This document shows, one piece after another, positions 34,129 to 57,414 of a stretch of DNA of 64,000 nt. How positions within the stretch are numbered: the stretch's first letter is position 1; each line of letters opens with the position of its first letter. The notes beneath the pieces were generated by a model. It was given only the letters and a program-made list of their open reading frames with translations, was not told the DNA's origin and ran no database searches. Made by a program: the position numbers and the translations under genes. Source of the stretch: Pisolithus tinctorius (Eukaryota; Basidiomycota; Agaricomycetes; Boletales; Pisolithaceae); assembly GCA_024663395.1 (NCBI GenBank), contig JANFAH010000009.1:1550001-1614000 (forward strand), in the 5' to 3' direction.

Positions 34129-34942
34129 CCCCTCGAGTGCTTGAGGGTGAAACGAATGCCAGACTGGTTGGTGTGCACCAACATATATGCCGCACTGTGT
34201 TCCTCCATCAGCTGTGCCACCTGATGGCAGATGGAGGACCTCAGCCATCAACAAGTAATGGAGCGGCTCCTCACCGACATACCGGGTCACACAGTGATGG
34301 ACCATTGAGTTTCTATGATTTCCCCTTGAGAGCTCCTCAGGTGTCATGCTTTCAGGCTCATCAGCAAAACCCAAGTTTGCTTATGCAGGCACAGTGGAAT
34401 GTGCTTGGCACTCGGCAGTGTCTCTGCATGATTGTTGGCACTGTGTACTCGTGGAATGGATGCTGGGCATCAGTAACACGTGAGAAAGATATTGATCTTG
34501 ACCAACAATGGGCGGGTTTGATGGTAATTACCTTGCTTGAAGAGCAAGGTCTCTGCAACCCCGAAAATCGTGGGAATAACCAACGACGGAAAAAATTTAA
34601 CCCTTTTTCGGGTTCGGTCATCAGTTCTGTATATACTGCTCTACGCACGGCGCACACACTCTGGCGTCGGTAATGATCGTCAATCGCCAGAGCTTTACGG
34701 ACGAATGAACTACTTCTTGGGTGACACCATTCGAGGTACACACACACACACTCTGGCGTTGTCATCGTTGTTGCAGTCTACCTGCAGCATCTGTATGGCT
34801 TTGCAGCATCAGGAAATTAACACTTTACTATTTTTGACTTTTTTGTGACTTTTTGAGAAGGAATCTACTATCTGTACTTTTTTTTTTGACCATATACAGC
34901 ATTTTGAAGAATGAAAAGAGAACAGAATCTATTGAGACAACT
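34129..34942. other. Transition zone between genes and repeats
   Basis: Upstream region of the DUF6533 gene and flank of the copia element. A 178-codon open frame at 34137-34673 (+) has no recognisable motif. A CACACACTCTGGCG motif occurs twice, near 34656 and 34744. Confidence 0.4.
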
Positions 34943-35280
34943 TGATGGGAATGTGGTGTGTGTGGAGACTGATGTGACAACAATTAGGTATGAGCAGGGT
35001 TGTGTGTGAGGATGGTTGGCTTAGCACTCAGCATGCTCAGGCAGGACTGTGGGTCGATGAGGTGATGTTCTTGTCTCATGGGGATTCCCTCCCTTGCAGT
35101 AGCTACCTTATATCTACATCGTACATTTGATATCTCATCTGTTGGGGCATGTCTACCCTTGTTCCCACCTTTGTATTTTCATTTTGCTTATCCCCTTCTT
35201 GGGGTTGTGACATATATCCTGTGCCCTCTGCGCATCATTGTTTCCTTATTTGGGTGTGACAGCAGGTTGGTATTCCTACA
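34943..35280 (-). repeat. Copia 3' LTR (338 bp)
   Basis: On the coding strand it begins TGTAGGAATACC and ends CCCATCA. It aligns to 46590-46760 over the part that survives there. Most differences between the two are TG in one copy against CA in the other, as expected when an ancestral CpG decays on opposite strands. Confidence 0.88.
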
Positions 35281-37843: not shown

Positions 37844-38689
37844 TGTCAAAGTCGGACAACACCCCTGGCTCCTTCTTAGGGCAGAGTTGGAGTGGGTTGG
37901 GCTGCGGAGTACAGTGGTCAAAGTCCGAAGCAAATCCGACCACTGGGTGGCAAGATATTCGACGAACAGTGAGCAGAGGGGTATGAAGGGAAGTTTCAGA
38001 GGCTGAGGTCAGAGTCGGAGCTGGAGGTCAGAGGTCGGAGGTCGGATGAGAGGGCATTGGGTTCAGCTAGTGCGCTGCCCCCTTGCGCGAGCTCAGCCCT
38101 CGTATTTCAGAGGTGGAGCGGACTCAGAGGAAGTGGAGACGAAACTCCGGAGGGGACTGAGAGGGAGTCAAAGGTGGGGACTTTATTCGATATTCGTACT
38201 GATTACATCGGAGTACTACGTGGCCTTATATACAATGTATCTCAAGGGCAGTGCAGTATGGAATGTAAACCAATAAGTGTATAGTGGGTTAGAGTCCTTC
38301 CGACACAAGGGATAGAGGGTAGGGACGACAGGGACCTTAACTGAGACAAGGAAACTACTACAACGAGGAAAAGAGGGTGAATACCAAAGGAGTGGAAGAA
38401 TGGAGAAAACCGACACGAGGGCGGAACCCTATCTAGGATGCAGGGCCACAAGTCTGACAGCCCATGTGACCAACCTTAGGGCGGAGTTGAGCAGAGTTGG
38501 TCAAAACATGGACGAGGGACCTCGGAGAGGTGTGGAGATGTGTCGGGAGGGTCGGAGGAGTGTGGGAACACGTCAGAGGAGGGCGGAGAAGCGCGGGAAC
38601 ATGTCGGAAGAGGGCGGAGAAGTGCAGGAACATGTTGGAGGAGGGCGGAGTAGGTGTTAGGGGCTTACGCTGGTGTCATGGCCATGACA
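37844..38689 (-). repeat. Chromovirus 3' LTR (846 bp)
   Basis: Begins on the coding strand with the perfect 16-bp palindrome TGTCATGGCCATGACA and ends CTTTGACA. Differs from the other LTR by 20 transitions and one single-base indel; 11 of the changes are CpG decays on this copy. Confidence 0.95.
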
Positions 38690-38733
38690 GTATCCCCCCC
38701 TTAGGGCCTGAACCCCTGAAGGCCATAGCAAAG

Positions 38734-41700
38734 CTACAACGGAGGTAAGTAAGGTCCAGGTTTATGAGGATAGTGAGCATGGTAAGCAGCCAACAACTCG
38801 GAGGCATGTTCTAACTCTGTTGCCAACACCCAAGAGGTCTTGTCTTCAGTATTCTCATAGCCTGCCCAGCGGACTAGATACAACAACTGACAATGACGGT
38901 GGCGGCGATCCACCTTTGAGTCGAGGATCTCTGAAATCTCGTACTCAAGGTCACCATCCACCTCAACAGGCGGAGGCGGAGGTTGGTGCCGATCAGGGAA
39001 GGGGTTCGGAGTAGCAGGCTCTAACTGCGACACGTGAAAGACAGGGTGGATGGCCCGCATCGCATCAGGTAAGCAGAGGGTGATGGAGTGCATACCAGGC
39101 CTAGCTATGATAGCATAGGGGCCCAAGTTCTTCTCCGCAAGTTTAGCCGAAGGGCGGGTGGAGCGGAAGTACTTGGCCTTGACATAAGCCTGGTCACCGA
39201 CTTTGAACTCTGGTGGCGGAATGTGTCTAGCATCAGCCGGACCTTGATAGCGGAGTTGAGCGGCAGCCATCTCAGTGCGGAGGAAGTCGTGCAGGGTGGA
39301 AAGCTCCACAACATAGTTATGGGCCTTCGGAGAGGTGAGGTCGCAGTCAGAGTAAACTGACAAGTTTGGGTGGTACCCCTTATTAGCGAAAAAGGGAGAG
39401 ACTCCAGTAGTAGCACTCGGCGCATTATTACAAGCAAACTCCGCTAGTGGGAGTAACTCCAACCAATTGTCTTGTTGATAGTTACAGTAGGTGCGGAGAT
39501 ACTGCTCGAGGGTCTGGTTCATGCGCTCTGTTTGGCCATCGCCTTCCGGGTGGTAGCCCAATGTAAAATGAAGGTGCATATCTAAGGCCTTTCCAAGGGA
39601 GCGGAAGAAGTGCGACACAAACTCTGGACCCCTGTCGGAGGTGACATGAGCGGGTACTCCATGCTTGGAAAAGATGTGGGTAAGGAAGAGTTTTGCTAGG
39701 TCAGCGGAGGTGATGGAGTCATGGGTCGGAATGAACACGGTTTGTTTAGAAAGGCGGTCTACAACAACCAAGATGGCAGAGTAGCCTGCGGAGTTGGGGA
39801 GATGCTCAATGAAATCCATTGAGATGGAGTTCCATGGCTTCTCAGGGACAGGAAGCTGCTTCAGTAGGCCGAAGGGGCGGTGACGAGGGACCTTGCTGCG
39901 ACCACAAGTGGTGCAGGACCTGACATAGTTCTTTACATCAGTGCAGAGGTTAGGCCATATGTACTCGTGGCGAACAAGCTCTACAGTGCGACTCTGCCCA
40001 AAGTGACCTGCAAGCAGATGGTCATGTTTAAACCGAAGCACTTGGAGGCGGAGACCATCAATGTCGGGGACAAAGATGCGGCCATCGAGGCGGAGGAGAC
40101 CCTCATGGTCAAATGACCAGTGGAGGTCTGTCAGAGTTGGGAGGTGGGAAGCAGAGATGGGGTCGGAGGGTAGTGCGGAGATGATGTCGGCATGGAGCTG
40201 CTCAACATCGAAGATCATGGCGGCTCGGAGTACAGGGGCCAAGAGGTGGGTAGTATGGAGGGACAAAGCGAACTGTTCCTGGGTAAACACAGGGCGGAGG
40301 TTATGAGGGTTTACCTGTGCATAGTCCTTATCCCCCTCTTTTGGGTAAACATCCCAGCGGCGGGTAAGTGCGTCGGGCTTGGCTCCAAGGCAGCCAGGGC
40401 GGAAACGGATGGCTAGGTTGAACTGGGAGAGGTACTCTGACCAATGAGCCTGATGGCAGGTTAGGACCTTAGAGGTGGAGAAATACTCCAAGTTTTTATG
40501 GTCAGTCACCACGTCAGCAGGGGTGGTGGAGCCTTCCAAGTAATGTCGCCAGTGGCGGAAGGCCTCAAAAATCGCCAACAGCTCCTTATCATGAGTGTCA
40601 TAGTTGAGCTCCAGGGCAGTGAGTGTGCGGGAGTAAAAGGCAACTGGGCGGAGTTCACCATCGGAGCAGGTAATTGAGAGGATACCCACAATGGCATAGT
40701 CCGATGCATCGGTCTCAACTGTGACTGGGGCATCAGGCACCCAATGAGTAAGGATCGGAGCAGAGGTGAAAGCGGTCTTAAGGCGGAGGAAAGCGGAGCG
40801 GCACTCTTCGGAGAAGCTCCAAGGAGTGCCCTTCCGAGTGAGGCAGGTGAGCGGAACAACTATGTCGGAGTAGTTACCAATGAACTGACGATAGAAGTTC
40901 GCAAACCCAAGAAAGGACTGGATGTCTTTAACCTTGCGTGGTTCAGGCCAATCACAAATGGACTGGACCTTATCAGCGGACATGGTCAGACCGGATGGGG
41001 AGAGGACATAGCCAAGGTACTCGACAGAGTCTTTGTGGAACTCGCACTTTTCTGGCTTAGCAAAGAGGCTATGCTGGCGGAGGCGGCGGAGGACCTCTTT
41101 TACATGTTGGCAGTGCAACTCCTCATTGTGGGAGTAGATGAGGATGTCATCAAGGTAAACAACAATGCAGACATCGAGCATGTTGGCGAAGATGCTATTA
41201 ACAAACCGCTGGAAAGCTGCTGGCGCATTAGTAAGGCTGAAGGGCATAACCAACCATTCATAGGAACCATAGCAAGTGTGAAAGGCAGTTTTCCATTCGT
41301 CACCAGCACCAACTCGGACCAAGTGGTAGGCATGGTGGAGGTCGATTTTACTATAGATTTTAGCATGGCTCGGAGAATCAAGCAAGTTGGAGATGAGAGG
41401 GAGCGGGTAGTGGTCTTTCTTGGTGATTTTATTGAGTCCTTGGTAATCCACACAGAGGCGGAGTGAGCTGTCCTTCTTCTTAACAAAGAGGACAGGAGCA
41501 CCATGGGCGGAGGTTGACTGTTTAATGAAACCGTAGCTGAGGTGCTCATCTATGAAGGTGCAGAGCGCCTCAAGCTCGGGCGGAGAGAGGGAGTAGACAG
41601 TGCCTAGAGGCGGAGAAGCCCCTTCTTCAAGATCTATATTTAAATCAAAGCTGCGGTGCGGAGGGAGTTCAGTAGCCTTTGCTTTACTAAAGACATCAGT

Positions 41701-42462
41701 GAACTCATGGTAGTCGGAGGGCACTGCAGAGAGATCAGGAGGTGCGGAGGGCATCAAAGAGGCTCGGAGTTTCATATCTTCGGGGCAGAGGTGCAAGCAG
41801 AACTGTGCGGAGCCAGGAAGGGCACATGCACGGATAAAGGCTGCAGCTCCGATGAGAGAGATATGTGGAGCAGTGTGTGGCAAGCCAGCTGTCGGAGTAG
41901 GCAGTGGAGCTGATGTCAGAGGAGTGGACGGAGCGGAGGGTGTCGGTACTGAAGCGGAAGTCACAACAGAAGGTGACGGAGGTGCCAAGGGCGTCGGCAT
42001 TCTTTGTATTGATGGTCGGAATGAGATACTGCTCAATACCCAGTCAATCGACGGATTGTAGTGGGTGAGCCAGTTGTGTCCCAAGACCAATGAACAGGCA
42101 GAATCCAACGGAGTTACATAACAGGAAACAGATGTGACATCGCCAGAGGCAAAGCGGATGGAGAAATCTACTACTTGGGAAATGGCGGTATTACTAGTAC
42201 CATCAAACAGTTGGAGAGGAATAGGCGGAGAGACATTTTTTGTTGGGATTTTATATTTTTTAACTAAAGAGGGGTCGACAAAACAGTGCGAAGAGCCTGA
42301 GTCGACCAGAGTGGGGAAAGTATCTATGGAGAAATCAGGAAGAGAAATAATCGGAAGAAGAGAATTAGGGTCAGAAAGAGTGGACGTGTTGAGGTGGACT
42401 TCTGCATGGATGGGATCAACACTTCCTCCAGGACATACAGGCTCCCTGGAGGAGCGGGTTAA
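38734..42462 (-). CDS. Chromovirus Pol (protease, RT, RNase H, integrase, chromodomain)
   Basis: The -1 frame is open from the frameshift site to 38734, about 1,240 codons. Protease active site LVDSGSSHCFVD (near 42300), RT with VVYLDDILIYS, RNase H (TVETDASDYAIVGIL ... DHKNLEYFSTSK), integrase with HHCC zinc finger (HFGQSRTVELVRHEYIWP ... CTTCGRSK) and DDE core (WNSISMDFIEHLP, TSDRGPEFVSHF, HPEGDGQTERMN). It ends with a chromodomain (EYEISEILDSKVDRR ... YLVRWAGYE). The chromodomain normally guides integration to H3K9-methylated chromatin, and this copy did land in an older repeat. No initiator ATG is needed, as it is translated as Gag-Pol. Confidence 0.93.
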   Translation of the reverse strand, partial: LTRSSREPVCPGGSVDPIHAEVHLNTSTLSDPNSLLPIISLPDFSIDTFPTLVDSGSSHCFVDPSLVKKYKIPTKNVSPPIPLQLFDGTSNTAISQVVDFSIRFASGDVTSVSCYVTPLDSACSLVLGHNWLTHYNPSIDWVLSSISFRPSIQRMPTPLAPPSPSVVTSASVPTPSAPSTPLTSAPLPTPTAGLPHTAPHISLIGAAAFIRACALPGSAQFCLHLCPEDMKLRASLMPSAPPDLSAVPSDYHEFTDVFSKAKATELPPHRSFDLNIDLEEGASPPLGTVYSLSPPELEALCTFIDEHLSYGFIKQSTSAHGAPVLFVKKKDSSLRLCVDYQGLNKITKKDHYPLPLISNLLDSPSHAKIYSKIDLHHAYHLVRVGAGDEWKTAFHTCYGSYEWLVMPFSLTNAPAAFQRFVNSIFANMLDVCIVVYLDDILIYSHNEELHCQHVKEVLRRLRQHSLFAKPEKCEFHKDSVEYLGYVLSPSGLTMSADKVQSICDWPEPRKVKDIQSFLGFANFYRQFIGNYSDIVVPLTCLTRKGTPWSFSEECRSAFLRLKTAFTSAPILTHWVPDAPVTVETDASDYAIVGILSITCSDGELRPVAFYSRTLTALELNYDTHDKELLAIFEAFRHWRHYLEGSTTPADVVTDHKNLEYFSTSKVLTCHQAHWSEYLSQFNLAIRFRPGCLGAKPDALTRRWDVYPKEGDKDYAQVNPHNLRPVFTQEQFALSLHTTHLLAPVLRAAMIFDVEQLHADIISALPSDPISASHLPTLTDLHWSFDHEGLLRLDGRIFVPDIDGLRLQVLRFKHDHLLAGHFGQSRTVELVRHEYIWPNLCTDVKNYVRSCTTCGRSKVPRHRPFGLLKQLPVPEKPWNSISMDFIEHLPNSAGYSAILVVVDRLSKQTVFIPTHDSITSADLAKLFLTHIFSKHGVPAHVTSDRGPEFVSHFFRSLGKALDMHLHFTLGYHPEGDGQTERMNQTLEQYLRTYCNYQQDNWLELLPLAEFACNNAPSATTGVSPFFANKGYHPNLSVYSDCDLTSPKAHNYVVELSTLHDFLRTEMAAAQLRYQGPADARHIPPPEFKVGDQAYVKAKYFRSTRPSAKLAEKNLGPYAIIARPGMHSITLCLPDAMRAIHPVFHVSQLEPATPNPFPDRHQPPPPPVEVDGDLEYEISEILDSKVDRRHRHCQLLYLVRWAGYENTEDKTSWVLATELEHASELLAAYHAHYPHKPGPYLPPL

Positions 42463-42468
42463 TTTTTT
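42459..42468 (-). promoter_or_regulatory. Programmed -1 ribosomal frameshift site between gag and pol
   Basis: Coding strand reads TCA AAA AAT TAA in gag frame. A-AAA-AAT fits the X-XXY-YYZ slippery rule, sits directly before the gag stop, and a one-base backward slip continues exactly into the open pol frame (TTA ACC CGC). Confidence 0.7.
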
Positions 42469-43748
42469 GACTCTGACCTCTCCGCAGGCAGAGCGGTCGG
42501 AGTGGCAGCTTTAGCAGCACAGGCCTTGGCAGCACGGGAAGTCGACCTTGGGCAGTCCTTGGCGGAGTGACCAGGTTCACCACAGAAGAGGCACAGCCCA
42601 CCAGTAAGGTGGCGGAGCCGCTCAGCTGCTGTGAGCTTGCCATCTTTTCCGAGGAGATGGTTGATGTTGGACTTTGGCACTTCGGCCTTTTTAGAGTCGG
42701 ACTTAGGGGCGGAGGATGATGCGGAGGGTTTCGGCTTTGAGTTGGAGGTGCGGAGCAGAGTTCTTTCAGCAGGAGGAGGCTTGGCAGAGTAGGAGACTTC
42801 TGACTTGCACTCCCAGTAGCGTGCATCCACTGTCTGGGCCAACTCACGGAGTGCATGAAGAGTGGCAGGCTTGCTGACACGGGACACTTCATCCTTGACG
42901 CGGTCAGGGAGACCCGAGTAGAAGCAGTGGCAGAGTGCGCCTTTGCCATAGTCCTTTACCTGAGAAGCCCAGCGGTTGAACTCCACTAAGTACCTTGCAA
43001 TACGTGAAGAGTCCTTCATGGTAAGATTTTCCAGATGCTGGATGGCATTGGCAGCAGCATCATGAGGGCCGAAATTGGTAGTGAGCTCACGGAGGAACTC
43101 ACGGTGGTCATCCATCCACAGCAGACGATTAAGGTAATCATCTGGATTGAGAAGATCTGGTTCGAACCAGGCCAATGCCATGCCCTTAAGGTAGGACTGC
43201 ACATATGTGACCTTGGCTCGGTCGGAGTGGAATGCCCGAGGGCAGTCCTGGAAATTGAGCTCACATTGGACCAGGAACTCATGGAGTTTTTTAGGGTCGG
43301 ACCCATCAAAGGTGTCCGGCTTGCGGACTTTGGTTCGCAGAGCGGAGTCTCTGGAGCACTGGTTGGAGCAGGCTAGGGCATGGATGGCCTGGGTCAGAGC
43401 AAGCACCGGGTCATCAAGGGGATCCCCAAGGTTGTCAGGATCATCCTCATCATCAGGCCCATCACCAGGATGGTAGTCAGGATCGTCAGGGTCATCATCG
43501 GGGTCGCCTGGTCCATCTCTGCCAGGGTGAATGACGATAGGAGGTGGCGGGGAGTGGAGGGTGGACTGCTGATGGATGGAGGGTGCAGCATGTGAGGCGC
43601 TGTCTGGAGCAGGGTTGGAGTTGGAGCGCCCCCTGGAGGAGAAGCTCCGGAAGGGCTCAACAACCGAAGGGAGACATCGGGGGTTTGCCAAGGCTGTAGC
43701 AAGGGCCTCGGTAGCATCCCGTTGTCGGAGACGTGTCATGGGAGGCAT
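42459..43748 (-). CDS. Chromovirus Gag
   Basis: 429 residues from MPPMTRLRQRDATEAL. The N-terminal third is acidic and low complexity (DDDPDDPDY...). A retrotransposon-gag capsid region follows (DTFDGSDPKKLHEFLVQC ... YVQSYLKGMALAWFE). One CCHC zinc knuckle, CLFCGEPGHSAKDC, lies near residue 398. It ends SESKN at the slippery site. No lesions seen, unlike the surrounding copia gene. Confidence 0.93.
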   Translation of the reverse strand: MPPMTRLRQRDATEALATALANPRCLPSVVEPFRSFSSRGRSNSNPAPDSASHAAPSIHQQSTLHSPPPPIVIHPGRDGPGDPDDDPDDPDYHPGDGPDDEDDPDNLGDPLDDPVLALTQAIHALACSNQCSRDSALRTKVRKPDTFDGSDPKKLHEFLVQCELNFQDCPRAFHSDRAKVTYVQSYLKGMALAWFEPDLLNPDDYLNRLLWMDDHREFLRELTTNFGPHDAAANAIQHLENLTMKDSSRIARYLVEFNRWASQVKDYGKGALCHCFYSGLPDRVKDEVSRVSKPATLHALRELAQTVDARYWECKSEVSYSAKPPPAERTLLRTSNSKPKPSASSSAPKSDSKKAEVPKSNINHLLGKDGKLTAAERLRHLTGGLCLFCGEPGHSAKDCPRSTSRAAKACAAKAATPTALPAERSESKN

Positions 43749-43803
43749 AACGGATGTGGTAGGGGAAGTGAGAGAGCTTGTACAAGTGAGAGTACAAATA
43801 TAC

Positions 43804-44648
43804 TGTCAAAGTCGGACAACACCCCTGGCTCCTTCTTAGGGCGGAGTTGGAGCGGGTTGGGCTGCGGAGTACAGCGGTCAAAGTCCGAAGCAAATCCGAC
43901 CACTGGGTGGCGAGATATTCGACGAACAGTGAGCGGAGGGGTATGAAGGGAAGTTTCGGAGGCTGAGGTCGGAGTCGGAGCTGGAGGTCAGAGGTCGGAG
44001 GTCAGATGAGAGGGCGTTGGGTTCAGCTAGTGTGCTGCCCCCTTGCGCGAGCTCAGCCCTCGTATTTCAGAGGTGGAGCAGACTCAGAGGAAGTGGAGAC
44101 GAAACTCCGGAGGGGACTGAGAGGGAGTCAAAGGTGGGGACTTTATTCGATATTCGTACTGATTACATCGGAGTACTATGTGGCCTTATATACAATGTAT
44201 CTCAAGGGCAGTGCAGTATGGAATGTAAACCAATAAGTGTATAGTGGGTTAGAGTCCTTCCGACACAAGGGATAGAGGGTAGGGACGACAGGGACCTTAA
44301 CTGAGACAAGGAAACTACTACAACGAGGAAAAGAGGGTGAATACCAAAGGAGTGGAAGAATGGAGAAAACCGACACGAGGGTGGAACCCTATCTAGGATG
44401 CAGGGCCGCAAGTCCGACAGCCCATGTGACCAACCTTAGGGCAGAGTTGAGCAGAGTTGGTCAGAACATGGACGAGGGACCTTGGAGAGGTGTGGAGATG
44501 TGTCGGAGGGTCGGAGGAGTGTGGGAACACGTCGGAGGAGGGCAGAGAAGCGCGGGAACATGTCGGAAGAGGGCGGAGAAGTGCAGGAACATGTTGGAGG
44601 AGGGCGGAGTAGGTGTTAGGGGCTTACGCTGGTGTCATGGCCATGACA
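43804..44648 (-). repeat. Chromovirus 5' LTR (845 bp)
   Basis: Same edges as the 3' LTR. Eight of the CpG-type differences are decays on this copy. Directly inside it is not a TGG-starting tRNA complement but a hairpin-forming sequence (TTGTAC, 8-nt loop, GTACAA; 43778-43797). Confidence 0.95.
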
Positions 44649-46395
44649 GGTGTGGTTCATGTGTCTGCTTAGTGGCAGTACACACTTCACAATTGAAATT
44701 GGGTGAGTTCAGATTGACTTCGAACCCTTTCACTAGCTTCTTACAGAACAGGTGGTGCAGTCCACTTATCCCAATATGGCCAAAGTGTTTATGCCATGTT
44801 TTCCACAAGGTTGTTTCATCAGTGAGACTGGTTTGCTCACTCCTTGTAGGTACTGTAAATTGTAGTTCATATAAGTGATTTTTCCACTTCCCCAGTGTGA
44901 TAACATCCCCTGAGGAGTTGCACAATTTGATCTGGCCTCCTCCACTGATGGAGCAACCACCTTGTGCATCTAAGTGGCCAATTGAAAATAAGTTATTAGG
45001 TGATGACAGCACATGTAACACATTGCATAGATTAACAGTGACTGTCTGGTCACCTATTTGGCTATTCACCATGACTGTGCCATGTCCAGGTATGGCAGCC
45101 AGCTTGGTACCTATTCTGGAGACTGTTTTGTCCAGTAGTACCTCATAGGTAGTGAATGCTTTGCGATGAGTGCAGATGTGCAATGTTGTAGTGCTATCAG
45201 CCAACCACACATATGCAGAATAAGTTTCTGATTTGGGAGACTTAGTATCTACACTTTTGGTAGAGGAGAATGCTACATCATCTTTGGAGTCCATATTCTC
45301 CACTGTGTGATGTGCTTTGTCTGATTGTCCAGAGTGTCTACTAGACTGCTTCCTATCCTGATCTCTATCTTGGTCTCTAGATCTCTGTCTTTGCTGTTTA
45401 TCTTTGTTATCCAGGTTGGTCCAACACTCCTGGGTAGTGTGACCAAACCATTGGCAGTGTCCACATTTAGGTTTGTTCTTGAAGTGGCACTCAGAAGTTC
45501 TATGATTGGTGTGACTGCATATGTCACACAGGCCCAGATGATTGGCCTTATGTTTATTGCTCCCACCACTCTTGGCATAGTACCCACTCTCTCTGCCTTC
45601 ATGCTTGCAGTGTTCCCACTCAGTGCGGAGTAGTGATATTATCTCTTGCATAGATATCTTGGTTGTTTGTGAGTGCAACCCTCTGAGGAAGCCAGAGGTA
45701 TAGCTATCCCACGAGGTGGGGAGTGATGACAGCAACACAGCCTGGAACTGGGGATCAGGCATGACGTCACCCATTTCATACAGCTGGTTCTGCAAGTTGC
45801 ATAGTTTAGTGGTGTGATTGGGGAGGTCCGTATCCTCCTGTGCCTTGAGGCCATAGATCTTGTGCCTAATAGTGGCGATAGACTGCTGGCCCTGGGTTTC
45901 ATGTACCATGTGTAGATTATGCCACAATGTGGCACTGGTCTCCATCTCTGATTGGGCATGGATGGTCTGATTGTTGGCAAGGTTTGCCATAAGCATCACA
46001 TATGCATGTTTGTCATGTTTATGCCAGGCATTCAATTCATCTGGCAGGGTCTCAGATGGCTGTGGGTCATCCCCTGTCACCATCTCATATAGATCTTGGA
46101 GCCGAAGTACGGTGGCAATCTTCTTTTTCCATGCTGCCCAGTTATTAGAGGTGAGCTTCTCCATCTTAACTATCTTCATCTCTCCTTCTTGTCCCCTCTC
46201 TCTCGACCTGGCTTGCCCCTTCCCTTTCAACAATGCCATCATCGACATCAAGGACCCATCGACAGCTGGGCCTGGTTCTATCAGTTGTGACGAGGGCCCT
46301 GCAACTGTGGGCAAACCTATAGGTGAGCTGGACATTACCTGGGGTGTCCTCGAGGCACCGGCTGATGCTGTTGGTGCTGCAGGTGAGGACCACAT
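44649..46395 (-). pseudogene. Copia polyprotein, upstream part: gag, protease, GAG-pre-integrase
   Basis: Open frame from an ATG at 46395; a stop lies just upstream in the same frame. Gag shows a CCHC knuckle CGHCQWFGHTTQEC. The protease region reads WLADSTTTLHIC, where the family normally has an Asp-Ser-Gly triad, so the active site may be lost. The pre-integrase zinc motif follows (HKHFGHIGISGLHHL ... CEVC). The frame runs into the chromovirus LTR at 44648 and resumes at 37843 on the far side of that insertion. Confidence 0.85.
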
Positions 46396-46574: not shown

Positions 46575-46589
46575 GCAGGGCTCATAACC
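46575..46589 (-). promoter_or_regulatory. Copia primer-binding site (half-tRNA type)
   Basis: Directly inside the 5' LTR the coding strand reads GGTTATGAGCCCTGC. Its complement contains CTCATAACC, the anticodon loop and 3' side of the anticodon stem of initiator tRNA-Met, not the tRNA 3' CCA end. This matches the internal half-tRNA priming known for Drosophila copia. Confidence 0.7.
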
Positions 46590-46760
46590 TGATGGGAATG
46601 TGGTGTGCATGGAGACTGACATGACAACAATTAGGTATGAGCAGGGTTGTGTGCAAGGATGGCTGGCTTAGCACTCAGCACATTCAGGCAGGACTGCAGG
46701 TTGACAAGGTGACATTCTTGTCTCATGGGGATTCCCTCTCTTGTGGTAGCTACCTTATAT
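46590..46760 (-). repeat. Copia 5' LTR, truncated (171 of 338 bp)
   Basis: Matches the 3' LTR from its inner edge up to CTACCTTATAT, then similarity stops abruptly at 46760 and unrelated sequence follows. The element therefore lost its promoter-bearing outer half. Confidence 0.85.
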
Positions 46761-47847: not shown

Positions 47848-48059
47848 TGTAGGAAAAGGATTTAAGAGGGAGAGGACTGGGTAGTTGGATTATCTGAGGG
47901 GAGTGAGTAGGCCGAAGGGGCTTCTATAGCCTAGGCAAGGATCCTGGTAGTCATCTGAATGCTTCTAAGGCTGTCTTGGTGCAGGGAATGACCTGCTTGA
48001 ACTCATCTCTCGTCTGTGGGTAACTCGTCTATTGTTTTTTAAAAAAACTAACTACATCC
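47848..48059 (-). repeat. Gag-only element 3' LTR, first piece (outer part)
   Basis: About 205 bp match 57210-57414 closely. The substitutions I can see are all CpG-type, besides length differences in the T/A run near the end. The last 8 bp CTACATCC are the target duplication of the inserted transposon. Confidence 0.85.
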
Positions 48060-48072
48060 CAAGAGGTGTGCA
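48060..48072 (+). repeat. Left terminal inverted repeat of the 5.6-kb transposon
   Basis: 13 bp, perfect complement of 53670-53682; preceded by the 8-bp duplication. Confidence 0.88.
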
Positions 48073-48393
48073 ATGTTAAAGTCTCATACACTAACTGCAG
48101 AAGTCAAGGGGGGGACCCCACCCCCCGTGACAGTCACAAAATTACTATGTTTAGGTCGTCATGTGTGCTTTAGAATAACAGAATTATTTTCGAATGGCAG
48201 GGACCCCATTCACTGCAATACAAGGAGAGCTACAAATGACAAGTCGGATTTTGCATCAGATGCAAACACAATGTGACAATGAAAGTACTCAAAATGATTC
48301 TAAAGCATCATGTGAATGATAGTACGGTTTTTTCAAGCATCAAGTGAGCATAATGGCAGTGGGGAAAAAAGAGAAAAAAAACTATGTGCGAGC

Positions 48394-51300
48394 TCATTTG
48401 CCTCCAGACGAACAGCTACCCTCAGCAGCAACTGCCCTTGTGCTGCTGCCCTTCCTCTTCTGCCCAGTGGAAACTGCTAAATCCCCATAGTTCTCCTTCT
48501 CAGCAATGAGTGTAAAAGCAGGGTGAGCAGGAACACTGGCTTTCTTCTCCTTGGTGGGCGTGATGTATAAGATGTCAAAGACATGGCAGGGTAAATGGCG
48601 ACCCATCACCTTTCCAGGATGAGCGTACTCTGGATGGAAGAAGCTGAGGTGCTGCTCCATGTTATAGTGCCAAACTGCATCTCTGAACTCGGTATCATGC
48701 CCACAGTGGACAGATAATGGACAGACGACAGGGACATTGCAGCATGGGCGGGCAGTGGATCCTCGCTCCCCAAATCCATATTTGAAGGGGATTTGGTAAA
48801 TGCAGCATGTATTGATCTCTTTCGTGCATTTGGTTGACTTCAACTTGACCACACAATCGGGATGACCTGAATGTCCACAGAAACCACATGGAAACAACTG
48901 ACCAACAGTGGAATACAAATCAGTCTCTCCTACCCCTTGCGATGCACAAAGGATGTGTGTGCCCATATGAGAATGTAAGTCTGCAGTTGGTTTTCGACAG
49001 AGAGGACAGTTCACTTCTACACCATTCCCACTACCAGCACACAATGCGACTCTTGCTTCTTCGCAAGACAATGCTGGACCGCCTGAAAGTATTTTAGTAC
49101 AGGTATATAGTAGTCTTGGATAATCTCACCATTCATTGAGTACAGAAAGCTTGAATTCAAGATCTGCATCAGTGTGATATTCGAGACAGCAAGCTTCGAA
49201 TCCACAATCCACTTCCACAACATGTTAACAGCTACCTCAAGTGTGTCATTACTGATAGCCCATGTGATGCCATGAGAGTTGACTTCAGCCAAGTGCTCAG
49301 AAGGCAGGTAGTTGGCAGCAGTGACAATGCTAGGATTGACAAGATGGATCAAGGCACCAAGTGTTGTCACCTCAACCACTTTCTGTGTTGAGATGTTGGA
49401 TCCGGGGAGGGGAGAACTAGCCTTCAAATACACTCCATTCCAGATCCAGAAGTGATCATCATCAGGTGTCAGTGGAGACACCAATAGAGTGAGAATCTTG
49501 CCAGTAATCTTCACCTTTCCAGCTACTGAGAGGAGAGTGTCGAGATTGATATCAGAATGTGAAATGCCATTCTCATGGATAGCTGTTGAACGAAGTAGGG
49601 CAAGATGGGTAGCATTGTCACGAAAGTGGATGAGCGTCAGGTAAGGGTTGCCAACAATGAAAGAAGTGCAGGCTGCAGTTGAGTCAGATAGCAATGACAC
49701 ACTTTCCATGGGCTTATTGACAGCTGTGTAGCCATGAACTCGAAGGAGGCAATCATGTGACTTGGGGGTGAAGTTACCATTGAAAAGAACATGACAGACC
49801 GTAGATTTGTGAACATATTTGCTGTCGACAAAGAGGTAATCGAGAGGCCAGATGCCAGGGCCAGATGGTGGAGACAACAGTGAAGAATCCCCATTTTCAA
49901 CCAATAAGGTAGGATCACCGATCTCGTCCTCAAGTTTGTCTTTGAAGCTTGGAACATCTTCACTCGCCTCCTCTGCCTCCTCTGCCTCATCTCCATGAAC
50001 TTCCTCCAGGTCCACCTCAATCTGAGCTTCGCAAGGATTGGAACGCTCTATGGTTGTAGTTGTGGTGGGAGCAGGTGTGATGGAACTTGGGTCATTGCCA
50101 TCAATGTTGTCTCCATCATCATTGATTCCTGGATACCTCCTGTGACCGAAGACAGAGAGTAAGTCCACATCAGAGTTTGTGAACAAGGTGTCAAAGGCAT
50201 AATCATCTGGGTCGAGGGTCGAGTCTGTGAGCAACCCTAGGGCAATAGCATGCCCATGGGTCCAAGCACTCGGAAGGTTGCAGTTGCATGATGTGAGGTC
50301 ACCGTTCCACATCTGACAATTGATGTGGTCGATGTGTTCTGAGTGAGAGAAATTGAGATGACGATGGCCATGACTGAGATCCAGGTTACATGCATAGATA
50401 CTCCCAACATCCCTCGCCACACACAGATGATCGATGGCTTGTTTGTAGTTAATTGTGCTGTTATGACCACCACACATCCACAGGAATGCAAAGAGTAATT
50501 CAATGGCATCGTCTCCAACATCTGGGAGATAAAAGGGGAAGGAAGCATCAAGCCACTGCTGTTTTGCAATACAAAAGATAGTGTTCTTGACCATGGTTTG
50601 AGTATCATAATACAATTGATCTGGCATGAAAGCACATCGATGTGCACGATAGAGAGCAAAGAGTAAGTGAGCAAAAGCAGAGAGGTGCATAACTTGTTCT
50701 GTGAGAGAAAGCATGGTATTGGTGAACAACTTGAGGAGGTGATGTAACAGGTTCCCTAGTGTTGAGAGTGCCTCAAAATCCATGATGGCATTGACATCAG
50801 GAGGGTAGCCCAGCTGTGCATAAAGTGCCTGTGTGGGGTTGATCTGCCCAAGCCGGGTGATTGCCTTGATGAGTTCTACTGCACGTGGGACGTCTTGTGG
50901 GTCATCAGGGTAGAGGAGCTTCTGTGCCTTGACATTGTCACAATCCTCAAGCCAGGTCAGATAGCGAAGTAGAAACTTTGCATTTATATGATGCCCATTG
51001 TTAAGCATTACCCCATGGACTGAGCAGAGCATAGTGCAAAAACCTGGGACAAGAGTCAGATGACTCCACAGAGAGAACAGAGTACTCACGCTTTATGATA
51101 TGCTTGTAATCAAAGTCCAGCATCATGTCATGGGGACCAGTTTGAAGATTAAGGCCAGGGAGACCAGAGAGTATGCCATAGAGGGGTGATGATTTGTCGA
51201 GCTTTGATTTCATGAAAATCTTGTGTCCAGCTTTTCATCTGGTGGAGTCACCATCCGTCGCAAAAGACCACAGTGGGCCAACCAGCTTCTGTGTGTCATT

Positions 51301-53366
51301 GGAGTACCATGCATCAATAACGTTCTTGATAACCTTTTCCCAGTCATTGTAGTCCTCCTCCTTGCATGACGGTGCAGTGAGAATAGGATATGTTTGATCC
51401 TCACCAAAGCAGTGCATGACGATGACAGTCATTTCCTTCCCAAGATGCACCTCACCTGATGTGAGTTTTTTGGCAATATGTGTAGCTGACTCGTAGGTAT
51501 TGAGGACAGGATTGACAGTGTGACCATGCTTCCAGCATAGGCTGCCCACCGCATTTGCAGAGGGAAAGTAAACAGCGCACTCTTCAAGTGCAACCTCATC
51601 CATCAGCAAACTGACACCACAGAGAGCTGTGCAGCCAGCTGCAACACGGGGTTCTACAACAACTCCATGGATGTTCTTGACGACGATGTCAAGAGTGATT
51701 GTTCCAATAACCGGGGTGATTGTGACAGGACTGAAGTGGTTGTGGACGACAGAGCGGAGAGACAGGAGACCAAGACAGTGGTTGAGCGCATAGAGTAAGT
51801 TAGCCCCACCAAGATGATAGACGAGAAGTGCAAGATCATAGGCATCACTGCTGTAGTTGCAGGGTTTGTAGCCGTGCTCAATTGCTTCCTCAATCTTTCG
51901 CAGGATGGTGTTGATACCAGCCCCATTGTTGAGAAGCGTTGTGAGTAGCTGCCAGAGCCATGGTAGATCAGACTGAGAGAGAGCCATGACTAACGTGGAG
52001 TGAGCCTCAATCGTTCCCAGCTTGTGGGCTATAACATGACCATCATTGAGAGACTGGATGTATTATTAGCTGGAATATCCTGACTTAAATGCACTGCACT
52101 AACCTTTAATTTCCACCTATTTAACTCATGGTCACAGCATTCAATTGTAAGCGACAGTTGCACCATGTTCTGGAGTGAGTGTCAAGTACCCAGTTGGTAG
52201 GTGGGCCAGTTTTCACCAAGCTGGGTGATCTCGGTCTCCAGACCAGCACAAGGAGGGCAGCATGGGGATCCTTGTAGTATAATACGATAACACTCAGCAG
52301 AGCGTGTGAATACTTGACCATCGAGAACGTTCAACATGAAGGGTAACTCGTTGTAATGCCCTGCAAGGGTGCAGTGCCATGGCAAGGTCATTTGCATGTT
52401 TGCTTTTTTGGGAATGTGCCAATGGAAAGGTAAGCCATAGCAGGGTGGAGGCAGTGGGCCAAAAACAGGACCAAGTGGAAAGATCAGACCATCTCCATCG
52501 GTAGTAGACTGAGAGCATGCATCATCAAGGCTATTATAATGTTCTCAGCTGAAGAAAGGAATGCAAGAGACGATGGATGAAAAGTACCTTGGATCGATTA
52601 ACATATCAGAAGTATTTGCCAGGCTAGTTAACAGTAGCAGTGCAGGCACAATGGAGGGATTCGGAGCACTGAGGTCTTGGAGGATGGATACCGACACATC
52701 CTTCTCCTTGCATTGAAGGGCTGCACAACACACTTTCTGGCGATAGTGGTTGGCAAGGGCTGTAAACTGACTGCTATGCTTAAGAGCAATGCTGCTAGAA
52801 ATGCCTGTTTTGACAGGGAGGGAGCAGCTAGGGCATTCAAGAACATGAAAACCATTATCTGGTATTAAAACTGTAAGGGCATCATGAGTGTACAGAATGA
52901 AAAATGCCCAAGGAGTCCCCATGTCGAGGAGTTCATCTATTTGATTGCGAGAAAGCGGTGCTTGAGATGCAGAACTTGGATGTGGAAGGTGAGAAGATGT
53001 GGAAGGAGAAGCAAGAGATGTGGCGGTTATGTGAAAAGTGGTCTCAAGCCCATTAGGTGATTCGAAAGGTGATAACGCAGCTGGTGCAGATAGGCTACAA
53101 TAATCAGAATACAGTTCAGGGCCTGTGTGCGATTGGTGCCATGATAGGGTAGTATTAGTTGCTGGGTATAACTGGGTTTGAGAATTCTGGGACTCAGAGC
53201 TCCGAGTGGGATTATCTAGGTTTGGTATGGAATCAGGTAACATTCTAACGTGACAGAGCGATGTCAGGGATAAATGGCAAGTGTGTCCATGCAATAGCAA
53301 TATCCTTGGTGGAGGAATGAAGGAATGAGTTGAGAAAGAGAGCAGACAAGGAGTGAATGTATGCAT
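48394..53366 (-). pseudogene. Large transposase-like protein with zinc-binding N- and C-terminal regions (uncharacterised Agaricomycete family)
   Basis: Multi-exon gene. The N-terminal exon 53366-52545 has a Cys pair (LECPSCSLPV) and is followed by a Cys-rich piece near 52230 (CCPPC). Core exons are 51987-51104 and about 51056-49130, then a C-terminal exon from about 49083 to 48394 (NCPLCRKP, PCGFCGHSGHPDC and other Cys/His pairs). Core motifs in order: LLMDEVALEE (near 51600), SFATDGDSTR (near 51255), LDFDYKHIIKR, and DDAIELLF ... CGGHNSTINYKQA (near 50500). These parallel P-element/THAP9 transposase blocks (FDE, CDG, PHLxKxxRN, ExxFGxIRxxGG), so I infer an RNase H-like DDE/D enzyme. An in-frame TGA at 51235-51237 (probably from CGA) makes this copy defective. 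I recall many homologues in mushrooms annotated only as hypothetical. Confidence 0.72.
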
Positions 53367-53669
53367 TGACTGTATCAGGGGCTATTTCCATCCTGATTTG
53401 GACATATCATACAGATCATTGAATTCCTCATATCTCAATAACAACTGCAATTGAAAAGAAACTAAGTGACTAGAATGATAGAGTATATAGTATATTGGGT
53501 CCCTTTACCGAGGCGCAGAGCAGAGAAATGCTAAATTGAATGTGCTAGGACGAAGTCGAGTGAAATCACTGCAGTAGCCTCAATTTCGCCCAAAAGGGAA
53601 TAAAAACAAGACCCCAGACACCAGTTGGCAGGATGCCTGAAGTGGGGTTGGTGTTCGGAACTCTCCAAA

Positions 53670-53682
53670 TGCACACCTCTTG
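53670..53682 (-). repeat. Right terminal inverted repeat of the 5.6-kb transposon
   Basis: 13 bp, perfect complement of 48060-48072; followed by the 8-bp duplication. Confidence 0.88.
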
Positions 53683-53690
53683 CTACATCC

Positions 53691-53826
53691 AGTACTAGGT
53701 AGTGCTGACTAAGCGACCAAAATGCGAAATTCTAAGTACCACTAGCAGAAAAACACCTGGAATCAAAACTAAATAAAATGAACAAAATAAAACAATTCCC
53801 CTAGTAGGGAAATTACATTCCCTACA
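53691..53826 (-). repeat. Gag-only element 3' LTR, second piece
   Basis: Continues the LTR after the transposon and ends on the plus strand with CCTACA, the inverted complement of the TGTAGG at the other LTR edge. On the coding strand it opens TGTAGGGAATGTAATTTC. Confidence 0.78.
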
Positions 53827-55627: not shown

Positions 55628-56984
55628 TTAACGCGCTCTTCGAGAGCGCCGGGGCGTGCAACTGCGGCTGCACGACCGCTTCGGCTCGGAACAGACATAT
55701 GAGTGCACTTTCCTCGAGTGTGAGTGAGAGTGCAAGGACAAGGACAAGGAAGAAGAGAGTGAGCTACTGGTTGAACATGAATACGAGCGTCTTCGAGCGC
55801 GACGCTGCTTCAAGCTGTGGGCGTACAACTGGACCGGTATGAATTCATCATTTGAATGCATGTATGAACCCGTTCGAGTCTGTGAGCGCGACAAGGTGAG
55901 GGCAATTGGCCTCGGCCATGTGGCCACCTTGACTGTGGCTGCGCATGCGGTGAGCTACGAGAGCGCTCGGCTGACGAGTGACGAGACTGAACAGCTGGTG
56001 GGTCGGGTACCACCAGCTCGAGCTGGATAGTAGGCAGGGACTGAGTATGTGTGATGCTCGTCTGAGCGGGTATGCACGATGGCATGTCGAACATGCTTCG
56101 AGAGGGTGCGGCTGTGGGTGAAAGCGAGCAAGTGGGCGATAAGCCCGTATGAGCCTCGAGCTGGCTTGTCAGCAAGGACCAGTTGTCAAGACAGTCTCGC
56201 AGAGTCCGTCCGGCAACTTCGTGTGGGATTTCCTGACCTGTAGGTAGAACAACGCGACCATTTACAAGTAGACACTTTCCTGAAGCTAAATACGACTTGA
56301 ATGAATGGCAACCTGCCCGAATATGGCCCGAAAGTCTGCAGAAGAAGCAGAACGAGTACAAACGGTGGGGAGAGTGATTGTCTGAGGTGTGTGATGGCTG
56401 TGTGCGTGAACTGTTGACCTTGCTGCTCTTCCAGAGGCTGCCGCTCGACCTCAGGACCTCCTTAGCTGTAGACATTAGACTGAGCACAGAATACTCTGAT
56501 GCATCGTGGTGTTCAAGCACCTCTCGCCTGAACTCTGGAGGGAACCCATACTTGAACATACTGGCCAGGTGGGGCAATGGACCCAGTAGGTTCTCGAGAG
56601 ATAACGAAACTCGATGGAAATTGCGATAATATTGCCCTAGGGATGACACCGAGACGACATCTGAACTTGCAAATCCAACCTTTAGGCTGGCAAGCTCGCG
56701 GCATGACTTCAACTCGTTTCGTCCAATTCTGGGTACTGCTGAGTGATTTCCGAGGTAAAACGAGCCCAATCTCCTTGACTACTACTGACAAAGTGGGACC
56801 AGAGGTCAGCTGACTCAAAAGGCGCATATTTGAGTGTGAATTTGATGCGTGCGAGCCCGTCCGAGAGGCCGAATCCATCACAGAAGTTGATTATGTCATC
56901 AAAATAACTTCGAAGGTCCTTGGGGCGCCCAGAGAAGCTTGGTGCTTCGGGCGAGCCTCGACATGGAATCTTGAGGCCGAACAT
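55628..56984 (-). pseudogene. Gag-like gene of the gag-only retroelement, frameshifted
   Basis: Starts MFGLKIPCRGSPEAPSFSG at 56984. The capsid-like part reads LRSYFDDIINFCDGFG and continues to YPELDE, where a one-base shift (56715-56730) moves to the frame reading ELKSCRELASLKVGF. A CCHC knuckle CFFCRLSGHIRAGC lies near 56340. The C-terminal part is Ser/Arg-rich. Similar capsid-type proteins occur in gypsy-like elements of Agaricomycetes. Confidence 0.75.
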
Positions 56985-57187
56985 GACTTCGGGAGTTTAT
57001 ACGAGTGTGAATGCTTGATAAGTGAGTGTGTGCGAGTGGGAAAACACGAAAATGCGAGCGAAGTGACTGCAAAAATGAGACCGAAAGGTGAAATCTGCTA
57101 AACAGAGCCTGAAAATTGCGAAAGCAAAGCTGGAGACTGCAAAATAAAATCTGGGAAGGTTTGGATGGGTGCCAGGCTAAGACAGAA

Positions 57188-57207
57188 GCCCCTCGCGGTG
57201 GGCTCCA
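57188..57207 (-). promoter_or_regulatory. Primer-binding site of the gag-only element
   Basis: Two bases inside the 5' LTR the coding strand reads TGGAGCCCACCGCGAGGG, starting with the TGG expected to pair with a tRNA 3' CCA. The tRNA species is not identified. Confidence 0.65.
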
Positions 57208-57209
57208 GT

Positions 57210-57414
57210 TGTAGGAAAAGGATTTAAGAGGGAGAGGACTGGGTAGTTGGATTATCTGAGGGGAGTGAGTAGGCCAAAGGGGCTTCTATAGCCTAGGCAA
57301 GGATCCTGGTAGTCGTCTGAATGCTTCTAAGGCTGTCTTGGTGCAGGGAATGACCTGCTCAAACTCGTCTCTCGTCTGTGGGTAACTTGTCTATTGTTTT
57401 TAAAAAAAAACTAA
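57210..57414 (-). repeat. Gag-only element 5' LTR, truncated by Harbinger insertion
   Basis: Starts TGTAGGAAAAGG on the plus strand and is collinear with the other LTR up to CTAA, where Harbinger sequence begins. The missing rest presumably lies beyond the right edge of the window. Confidence 0.85.

Follow-up and report, generated by a model that had tools for sequence, protein, structure and literature searches.

A DNA transposon of probable P-superfamily affinity in the mushroom Pisolithus tinctorius

Transposition in the P superfamily is GTP-dependent and involves a 17-nt staggered cut at the donor site, and internally deleted derivatives are typical of P elements. In Basidiomycota, P elements are already known from rusts, from a 2011 report by Cantu et al. 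That report presents P-1_PSt, P-1_MLP and P-2_MLP as P elements of rust fungi new to Dikarya, and describes 8-bp target site duplications (TSDs) and non-autonomous copies for the Melampsora elements (PMC3164196). The definition of the superfamily in PMC8230255 includes a [C/D](2)H motif right after beta5, and the P-element review PMC7776569 gives the GTP-binding residues of the P transposase as D528, K385, K400, V401, S409, F443, D444 and N447.

This analysis concerns an element at 48060-53682 of the window, the whole 64,000-nucleotide stretch of Pisolithus tinctorius DNA that was analysed. The element is very probably a P-superfamily DNA transposon that moves by cut and paste, and its lineage was recovered here from mushrooms. 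It differs from the P transposase in that no THAP domain was found, and in having a conserved Cys/His set within the catalytic fold and a long C-terminal part. A literature search of titles and abstract starts, with Repbase and the key surveys outside its scope, found no paper that puts these Agaricomycete proteins in the P superfamily; it is quite possible that Repbase or the surveys already record P elements from mushrooms.

Ends, target site and copies in the genome

A preliminary description of the element had noted perfect 13-bp terminal inverted repeats (TIRs), a perfect 8-bp TSD and exact restoration of an LTR when the element is removed. The ends and TSD were confirmed on recheck (Table 1), and the joined flanks (160 nt, with a single TSD copy) matched insert-free and at full length, at 95-98%, in all 40 scored genomic places (301 candidates), as the claim of restoration would have it. 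The interrupted repeat, which runs from TGTAGG to CCTACA, is LTR-like. A second piece of this repeat lies in the window at 57210-57414, and its match ends exactly at the TSD start; it belongs to a longer repeat copy (55899-57414) that breaks off at that same point, so the piece speaks neither for nor against insertion.

Table 1. Features of the element and its target site (window coordinates)
Feature	Position	Strand	Basis
Target repeat, left part, LTR-like, starts TGTAGG	47848..48059	+	empty-site and repeat comparison
Left TSD CTACATCC	48052..48059	.	8/8 with right copy
Outer TIR CAAGAGGTGTGCA, left	48060..48072	+	13/13 with right end; CAAGAGG constant in 14/14 ends
Inner ACAC box, left (positions 29-32 of bipartite end)	48088..48091	+	constant in 14/14 ends
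Exon 5: Cys/His-rich C-terminal region, stop codon	48394..49082	-	splice signals, copies; P0009 match
Exon 4: insertion domain, third catalytic acid (GDDAIELLFAFLxMCGGHN), C-terminal part	49130..51043	-	P0009 match; P0009 fold (predicted)
Exon 3: first and second catalytic acids (in LLMDEVALEE and ATDGDS), D(2)H motif (DFDYKH)	51090..52053	-	P0009 match; conserved in relatives
In-frame TGA, exon 3	51235..51237	-	copy comparison and splice model
Exon 2	52104..52530	-	copy comparison and splice signals
In-frame TGA, exon 2	52182..52184	-	copy comparison and splice model
Exon 1: proposed start codon, N-terminal CxxC...H...C motif	52588..53243	-	C36 copy comparison; weak matches, 4 relatives
Inner ACAC box, right	53651..53654	-	cross-copy end comparison
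Outer TIR, right	53670..53682	-	13/13 with left end; end comparison
Right TSD CTACATCC	53683..53690	.	8/8 with left copy
Target repeat, right part, ends CCTACA	53691..53826	+	empty-site and repeat comparison

The genome searched is a 92.5-Mb assembly of 221 contigs, with the window on contig C9. Used as a protein query, the exon 4 ORF returned eight matches at seven loci, and inspection of the ends at all seven found every locus bounded by ends and a TSD, perfect (8/8) in six and 7/8 in one; copies of the gene lacking such boundaries, which would have spoken against the original reading, were not among them. Besides that of the window element, perfect TSDs flank the copies on C36 (CTTGTGGC), C20 (CACAGAAC), C1 at 3.80 Mb (CTTTCAGA), C1 at 1.02 Mb (CCCATGTA) and C3 (GGTGAACC), and the C2 copy has the 7/8 pair ATTGCCCC/GTTGCCCC. 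Because non-partner flanks, cross-compared among five copies, match at only 1-4 of 8 positions, these TSDs are not due to chance. The C2 and C3 copies are each themselves interrupted.

The seven copies also define the ends of the family. CAAGAGG (positions 1-7), G11 and ACAC (29-32) are constant in all 14 ends compared, and the outer TIR varies between copies at positions 8-10, 12 and 13, the exact 13-bp form being specific to a subfamily. The pattern CAAGAGGNNNGC-N16-ACAC occurs at 20 places genome-wide, against one in the control. Thirteen of these are ends of the seven copies, two bound a further element on C13, and five are lone ends or chance occurrences (C1 at 4962 and 2557130, C28 at 522770 and 672113, and C9 at 328988, the last probably chance, judged by its letters). 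The C13 element is 1517 bp long, has a perfect 8/8 TSD (CCTTGACT), and consists of 730 bp (93%) and 787 bp (85%) from opposite ends of the C1 (1.02 Mb) copy with the middle absent. It is an internally deleted derivative, and shows that some copies lack most of the transposase gene.

In total, TSDs are 8/8 in seven of the eight insertions and 7/8 in the other, which counts for the P superfamily and answers the earlier call for copies elsewhere in the genome with these ends and 8-bp TSDs; this tally leaves out incomplete or fragmentary copies on C2 (338320, 354804, 735820), C12 (319132-320639) and C20 (354394-355902), as well as the lone ends on C1, C28 and C9. Since the C20, C1 (3.80 Mb), C2 and C3 copies form one subfamily (93.5-97% DNA identity), the eight insertions represent four subfamilies and not eight independent lineages. 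Six copies are depleted in CpG (observed/expected 0.26-0.68) with TpG in excess.

The exact 13-mer occurs at nine places, including the two ends of the window element (control 0+2). The other seven are probably chance: no partner end (≤2 mismatches) lies within roughly 5 kb in either direction, a range that misses a partner 5.6 kb away, and the genome DNA and protein searches found no element DNA or protein there. A one-mismatch version of the bipartite pattern (434 places versus 77 in the control) was discarded because it took in many other repeats.

Gene, protein family and predicted fold

The gene has five exons running from 53243 down to 48394, and is placed on the minus strand because reading frames are kept between copies and splice signals are present. 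Exon limits were set by eye from splice signals and by copy comparison (for the outer parts of the alignment), and the C36 copy lacks some splice signals. Exons 3, 4 and 5 are 90, 93 and 87% identical to P0009 of Pisolithus orientalis over 220, 680 and 198 aa. Judged from its two in-frame TGA codons, the window copy is probably not autonomous.

Two protein searches, each scoring about 8000 candidates, yielded 130 distinct relatives (43 and 87 further), with no rust protein among the relatives listed in either. As stated in the preliminary description, the family is common in mushrooms and labelled hypothetical: where a source gives a name, it is hypothetical or uncharacterised protein, except that a few in UniRef take theirs from a PHD-type zinc finger, and some metagenome proteins are nameless. 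Named relatives span many genera of Agaricomycetes (Suillus, Paxillus, Pisolithus, Mycena, Armillaria, Pleurotus, Stereum and others). Precomputed Pfam domains are present in three relatives (P0039, P0046 and P0072) and absent from 127; to our knowledge none of these is a transposase domain, and they may reflect merged gene models or fusions. The two clades of the family are homologous across 1086 profile columns. Part of the C20 copy is 100% identical to P0002 of Pisolithus tinctorius, a mushroom of the Boletales, with 50% of the query covered, a match that by itself would point to Pisolithus as the source of the genome. A 29-row tree joins the window copy to P. orientalis, with C36 adjoining, and joins C20 to Paxillus, next to two Suillus proteins; given these separate branches, the genome holds two or more old lineages side by side.

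In the predicted model of P0014, a strand at residues 136-144 carries D141, a strand at 249-254 is followed by D255, and a helix at 479-490 carries E482 (conserved in 35/35, 36/37 and 36/37 relatives). The predicted models thus place D, D and E on an RNase H fold in the P-superfamily arrangement, in which the first D lies on beta1, the second on or after beta4, and the E in alpha4. Directly after beta5 (strand 299-302) stands D303-x2-H306, conserved in 35/37 and 38/38, the [C/D](2)H trait of the superfamily. Residues 304-465 are mostly helical with two short strands, and alignments of the predicted models to the P transposase (PDB 6P5A/6PE2) extend over P residues 152-567 and 150-566, consistent with an insertion domain that is helical almost throughout, lies between beta5 and alpha4, and has the P fold. 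The fold score is 22.7 for the P transposase versus about 8 for Hermes (hAT), at 12-14% identity to P. The structure search proposed earlier returned the P transposase, RNase H topology is predicted, and the acidic motifs, previously said to follow P/THAP9 order, fall at D-D-E on a P-like fold in these models. Foldseek also returned RAG1 chains (8.7e-5 and 1.4e-4), and nothing at E ≤ 0.001 against viral models. The structure lists name no KDZ or THAP9 structure, an absence that excludes nothing.

D528 of P falls at the position of D479 in P0014 (35/37), the only one of the eight GTP residues that could be placed. Between the first two acids, C162, H165, H192 and C219 of P0014 are conserved in 37/37, 37/37, 37/38 and 38/38, and might, at a guess, form a metal site. 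The C-terminal half includes a portion rich in beta structure and is Cys/His-rich at its end, and the structure searches bear almost wholly on the core.

Sequence profiles recognise the family unevenly. PF21787 (TNP-like RNase H) matches 24 of 30 sister-clade members at E ≤ 1, the best at 23.8 bits (P0043), under the 24.6 cut-off. In set A1 it matches 2 of 26 at E ≤ 5, namely P0043 (itself sister-clade) and P0030 (E 0.023), and thus barely detects the nearer clade. The same model has no match in the genome itself, an uninformative result since the 14 controls are equally silent, and the window ORFs match no transposase model. A PDB sequence search with profiles A1 and A4 gave no P transposase match at E ≤ 10, only chance-level matches. 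No THAP model is among the families listed for 26 + 30 relatives (several rows lacking the N terminus) or for the window ORFs, in keeping with the protein without a THAP domain first described.

Alternative readings and proposed mechanism

The strongest alternative, though an unlikely one, is a fungal superfamily distinct from P and sister to it, which would share the layout of RNase H and helical insertion and not the GTP mechanism. In its favour are the low identity to P, the scarcity of Pfam matches (none passes the cut-off, and the nearer clade has hardly any), the additional C/H/H/C set conserved within the RNase H fold and the long C-terminal part. The P-superfamily reading, advanced only as a possibility at the outset, is supported by the ends, TSDs, empty site, several insertions, conserved gene and predicted catalytic fold taken together. 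Counting against it are the sub-threshold PF21787 scores, the absence of a PDB sequence match to the P transposase, the RAG1 chains among the Foldseek matches, the wider spacing of the first two acids, the GTP residues of P left unplaced, and the THAP domain not found.

KDZ (Kyakuja-Dileera-Zisupton) transposases are large fungal enzymes with Cys-rich parts, and KDZ-type elements can make 8-bp TSDs too. They are very common in this genome, where PF18758 matches 160 places, but that model has no match in sets of 26 (E ≤ 5) and 30 (E ≤ 1) relatives, none of the matches listed falls on the eight insertions, and hhalign gives a probability of 0.2% to one KDZ subfamily (three near-identical rows); a KDZ element is accordingly very improbable and was rejected. 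Still less probable is a hAT element, a group common in fungi that likewise makes 8-bp TSDs and whose Hermes fold appears in the structure match lists: it was rejected on its far lower fold score and on the hAT C-terminal dimerisation domain, which is not listed for window ORFs or relatives. A better match to hAT or KDZ than to P, named beforehand as contrary evidence, was not found in the fold comparison with hAT or the profile comparison with KDZ. Transib/RAG elements make 5-bp TSDs, and were rejected on the 8-bp TSD of this element. A host gene lying between chance repeats, for which the three relatives with other Pfam domains might be cited, is dismissed for this element by eight TSD-bounded insertions, seven of them perfect, plus an empty site in a repeat, and has almost no probability left.

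Under the P-superfamily reading, transposase from an intact copy would bind the bipartite ends (outer CAAGAGG and inner ACAC, about 32 bp), pair them, cut with the D-D-E site of the split RNase H domain, and join them to target DNA at points separated by 8 bp; repair would then leave the 8-bp duplication. The window copy, with its two TGA codons, would need the enzyme in trans. By position and fold, the modelled insertion between beta5 and alpha4 would correspond to the GTP-binding domain of the P transposase, and the mushroom enzyme likely uses GTP. A wider proposal, in which we place somewhat less than even confidence, is that mushrooms carry their own large P-type branch, probably GTP-dependent, in which THAP was lost or never present, the 32-bp ends are bound through fungal zinc regions, C162, H165, H192 and C219 (P0014 numbering) form a structural metal site within the RNase H fold, and target choice is perhaps steered by a long C-terminal module; the "hypothetical" Agaricomycete relatives would be its transposases, some maybe domesticated.

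With the P-superfamily reading, widespread nameless mushroom proteins (the 130 relatives, 127 without a precomputed Pfam domain) become likely transposases, and the range of P-type elements would widen beyond animals and rusts to take in Agaricomycetes, where the domain layout differs. GTP-dependent transposition becomes testable in a fungus, and the end pattern enables searches by which mushroom gene catalogues and repeat libraries can be corrected.

Comparison with known transposons

The mushroom element resembles the Drosophila P element in its predicted RNase H D-D-E, the [C/D](2)H motif after beta5, the helical insertion between beta5 and alpha4, a D three residues before the E, and the 8-bp TSD. 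The spacing from the second acid to E is 227 residues in P0014 and 228 in Drosophila P, whereas that from the first to the second is 114 versus 73. P0014 has about 650 residues beyond the matched core and the extra conserved C/H/H/C, and THAP was not found. The ends are comparable in length (31 bp in Drosophila P, about 32 bp and bipartite in the mushroom element) and differ in sequence. Hermes (hAT) shares the 8-bp TSD and an RNase H domain with a helical insertion, but differs in fold score (about 8 versus 22.7) and in its dimerisation domain, not listed here; KDZ is abundant in the same genome, with no profile match to the relatives. Vertebrate THAP9, an animal gene with a THAP domain, would share the catalytic signature, going by what PMC8230255 describes for the P superfamily. 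The rust-fungus elements, by their description in PMC3164196, are P-superfamily transposons of Basidiomycota, with 8-bp TSDs in Melampsora.

Repeats and a retrotransposon in the window

The P-type element of the window interrupts a repeat; the piece to its left and a second piece of the same repeat elsewhere in the window are 96% identical. The match between them stops precisely at the first base of the target-site duplication of the element, and the second piece forms part of a larger repeat copy that breaks off at the same position, 57414. The window also contains a 175-bp direct repeat (88% identity) and an LTR retrotransposon bounded by direct repeats of 847 bp with 97.5% identity. Judged by eye, its two long ORFs appear to encode gag and a Ty3/Gypsy-type pol with a chromodomain-like end.

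Repeats and retrotransposon features, in window positions
Feature	Position	Strand
Interrupted repeat, piece left of the element	47848-48051	
Second piece of the same repeat	57210-57414	
Larger repeat copy	55899-57414	
175-bp direct repeat, first copy	34939-35113	
175-bp direct repeat, second copy	46586-46760	
LTR retrotransposon	37844-44649	
Long ORF in retrotransposon	38734-42510	minus
Long ORF in retrotransposon	42459-43805	minus

Transposons elsewhere in the genome

Two element copies on other contigs, L020 (C2) and C3:4098390-4115590, each carry an interruption in turn, of roughly 0.8 kb in the former and 11.5 kb in the latter; overlaps of 13-14 bases at the breaks may contain duplications from these later insertions. 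The same genome holds at least 160 matches to KDZ (Kyakuja-Dileera-Zisupton) transposases (150 scored of 463 candidates). Among the top matches, three share 99% identity with one another, which hints at a recent KDZ expansion.

Relatives of the transposase

Three of the 130 protein relatives (P0039, P0046, and P0072) carry further precomputed Pfam accessions, presumably of TPR or alpha/beta-hydrolase types; these could result from the merging of gene models, from an insertion within a gene, or from fusion. A near-invariant Cys/His set lies within the RNase H fold (C162, H165, H192, and C219 of the relative P0014) and is not mentioned in the portions of the P-element literature examined. The sister clade keeps this set (P0044 numbering): C533, H536, and C594 are each present in 30 of 30 proteins, and H563 in 28 of 29.
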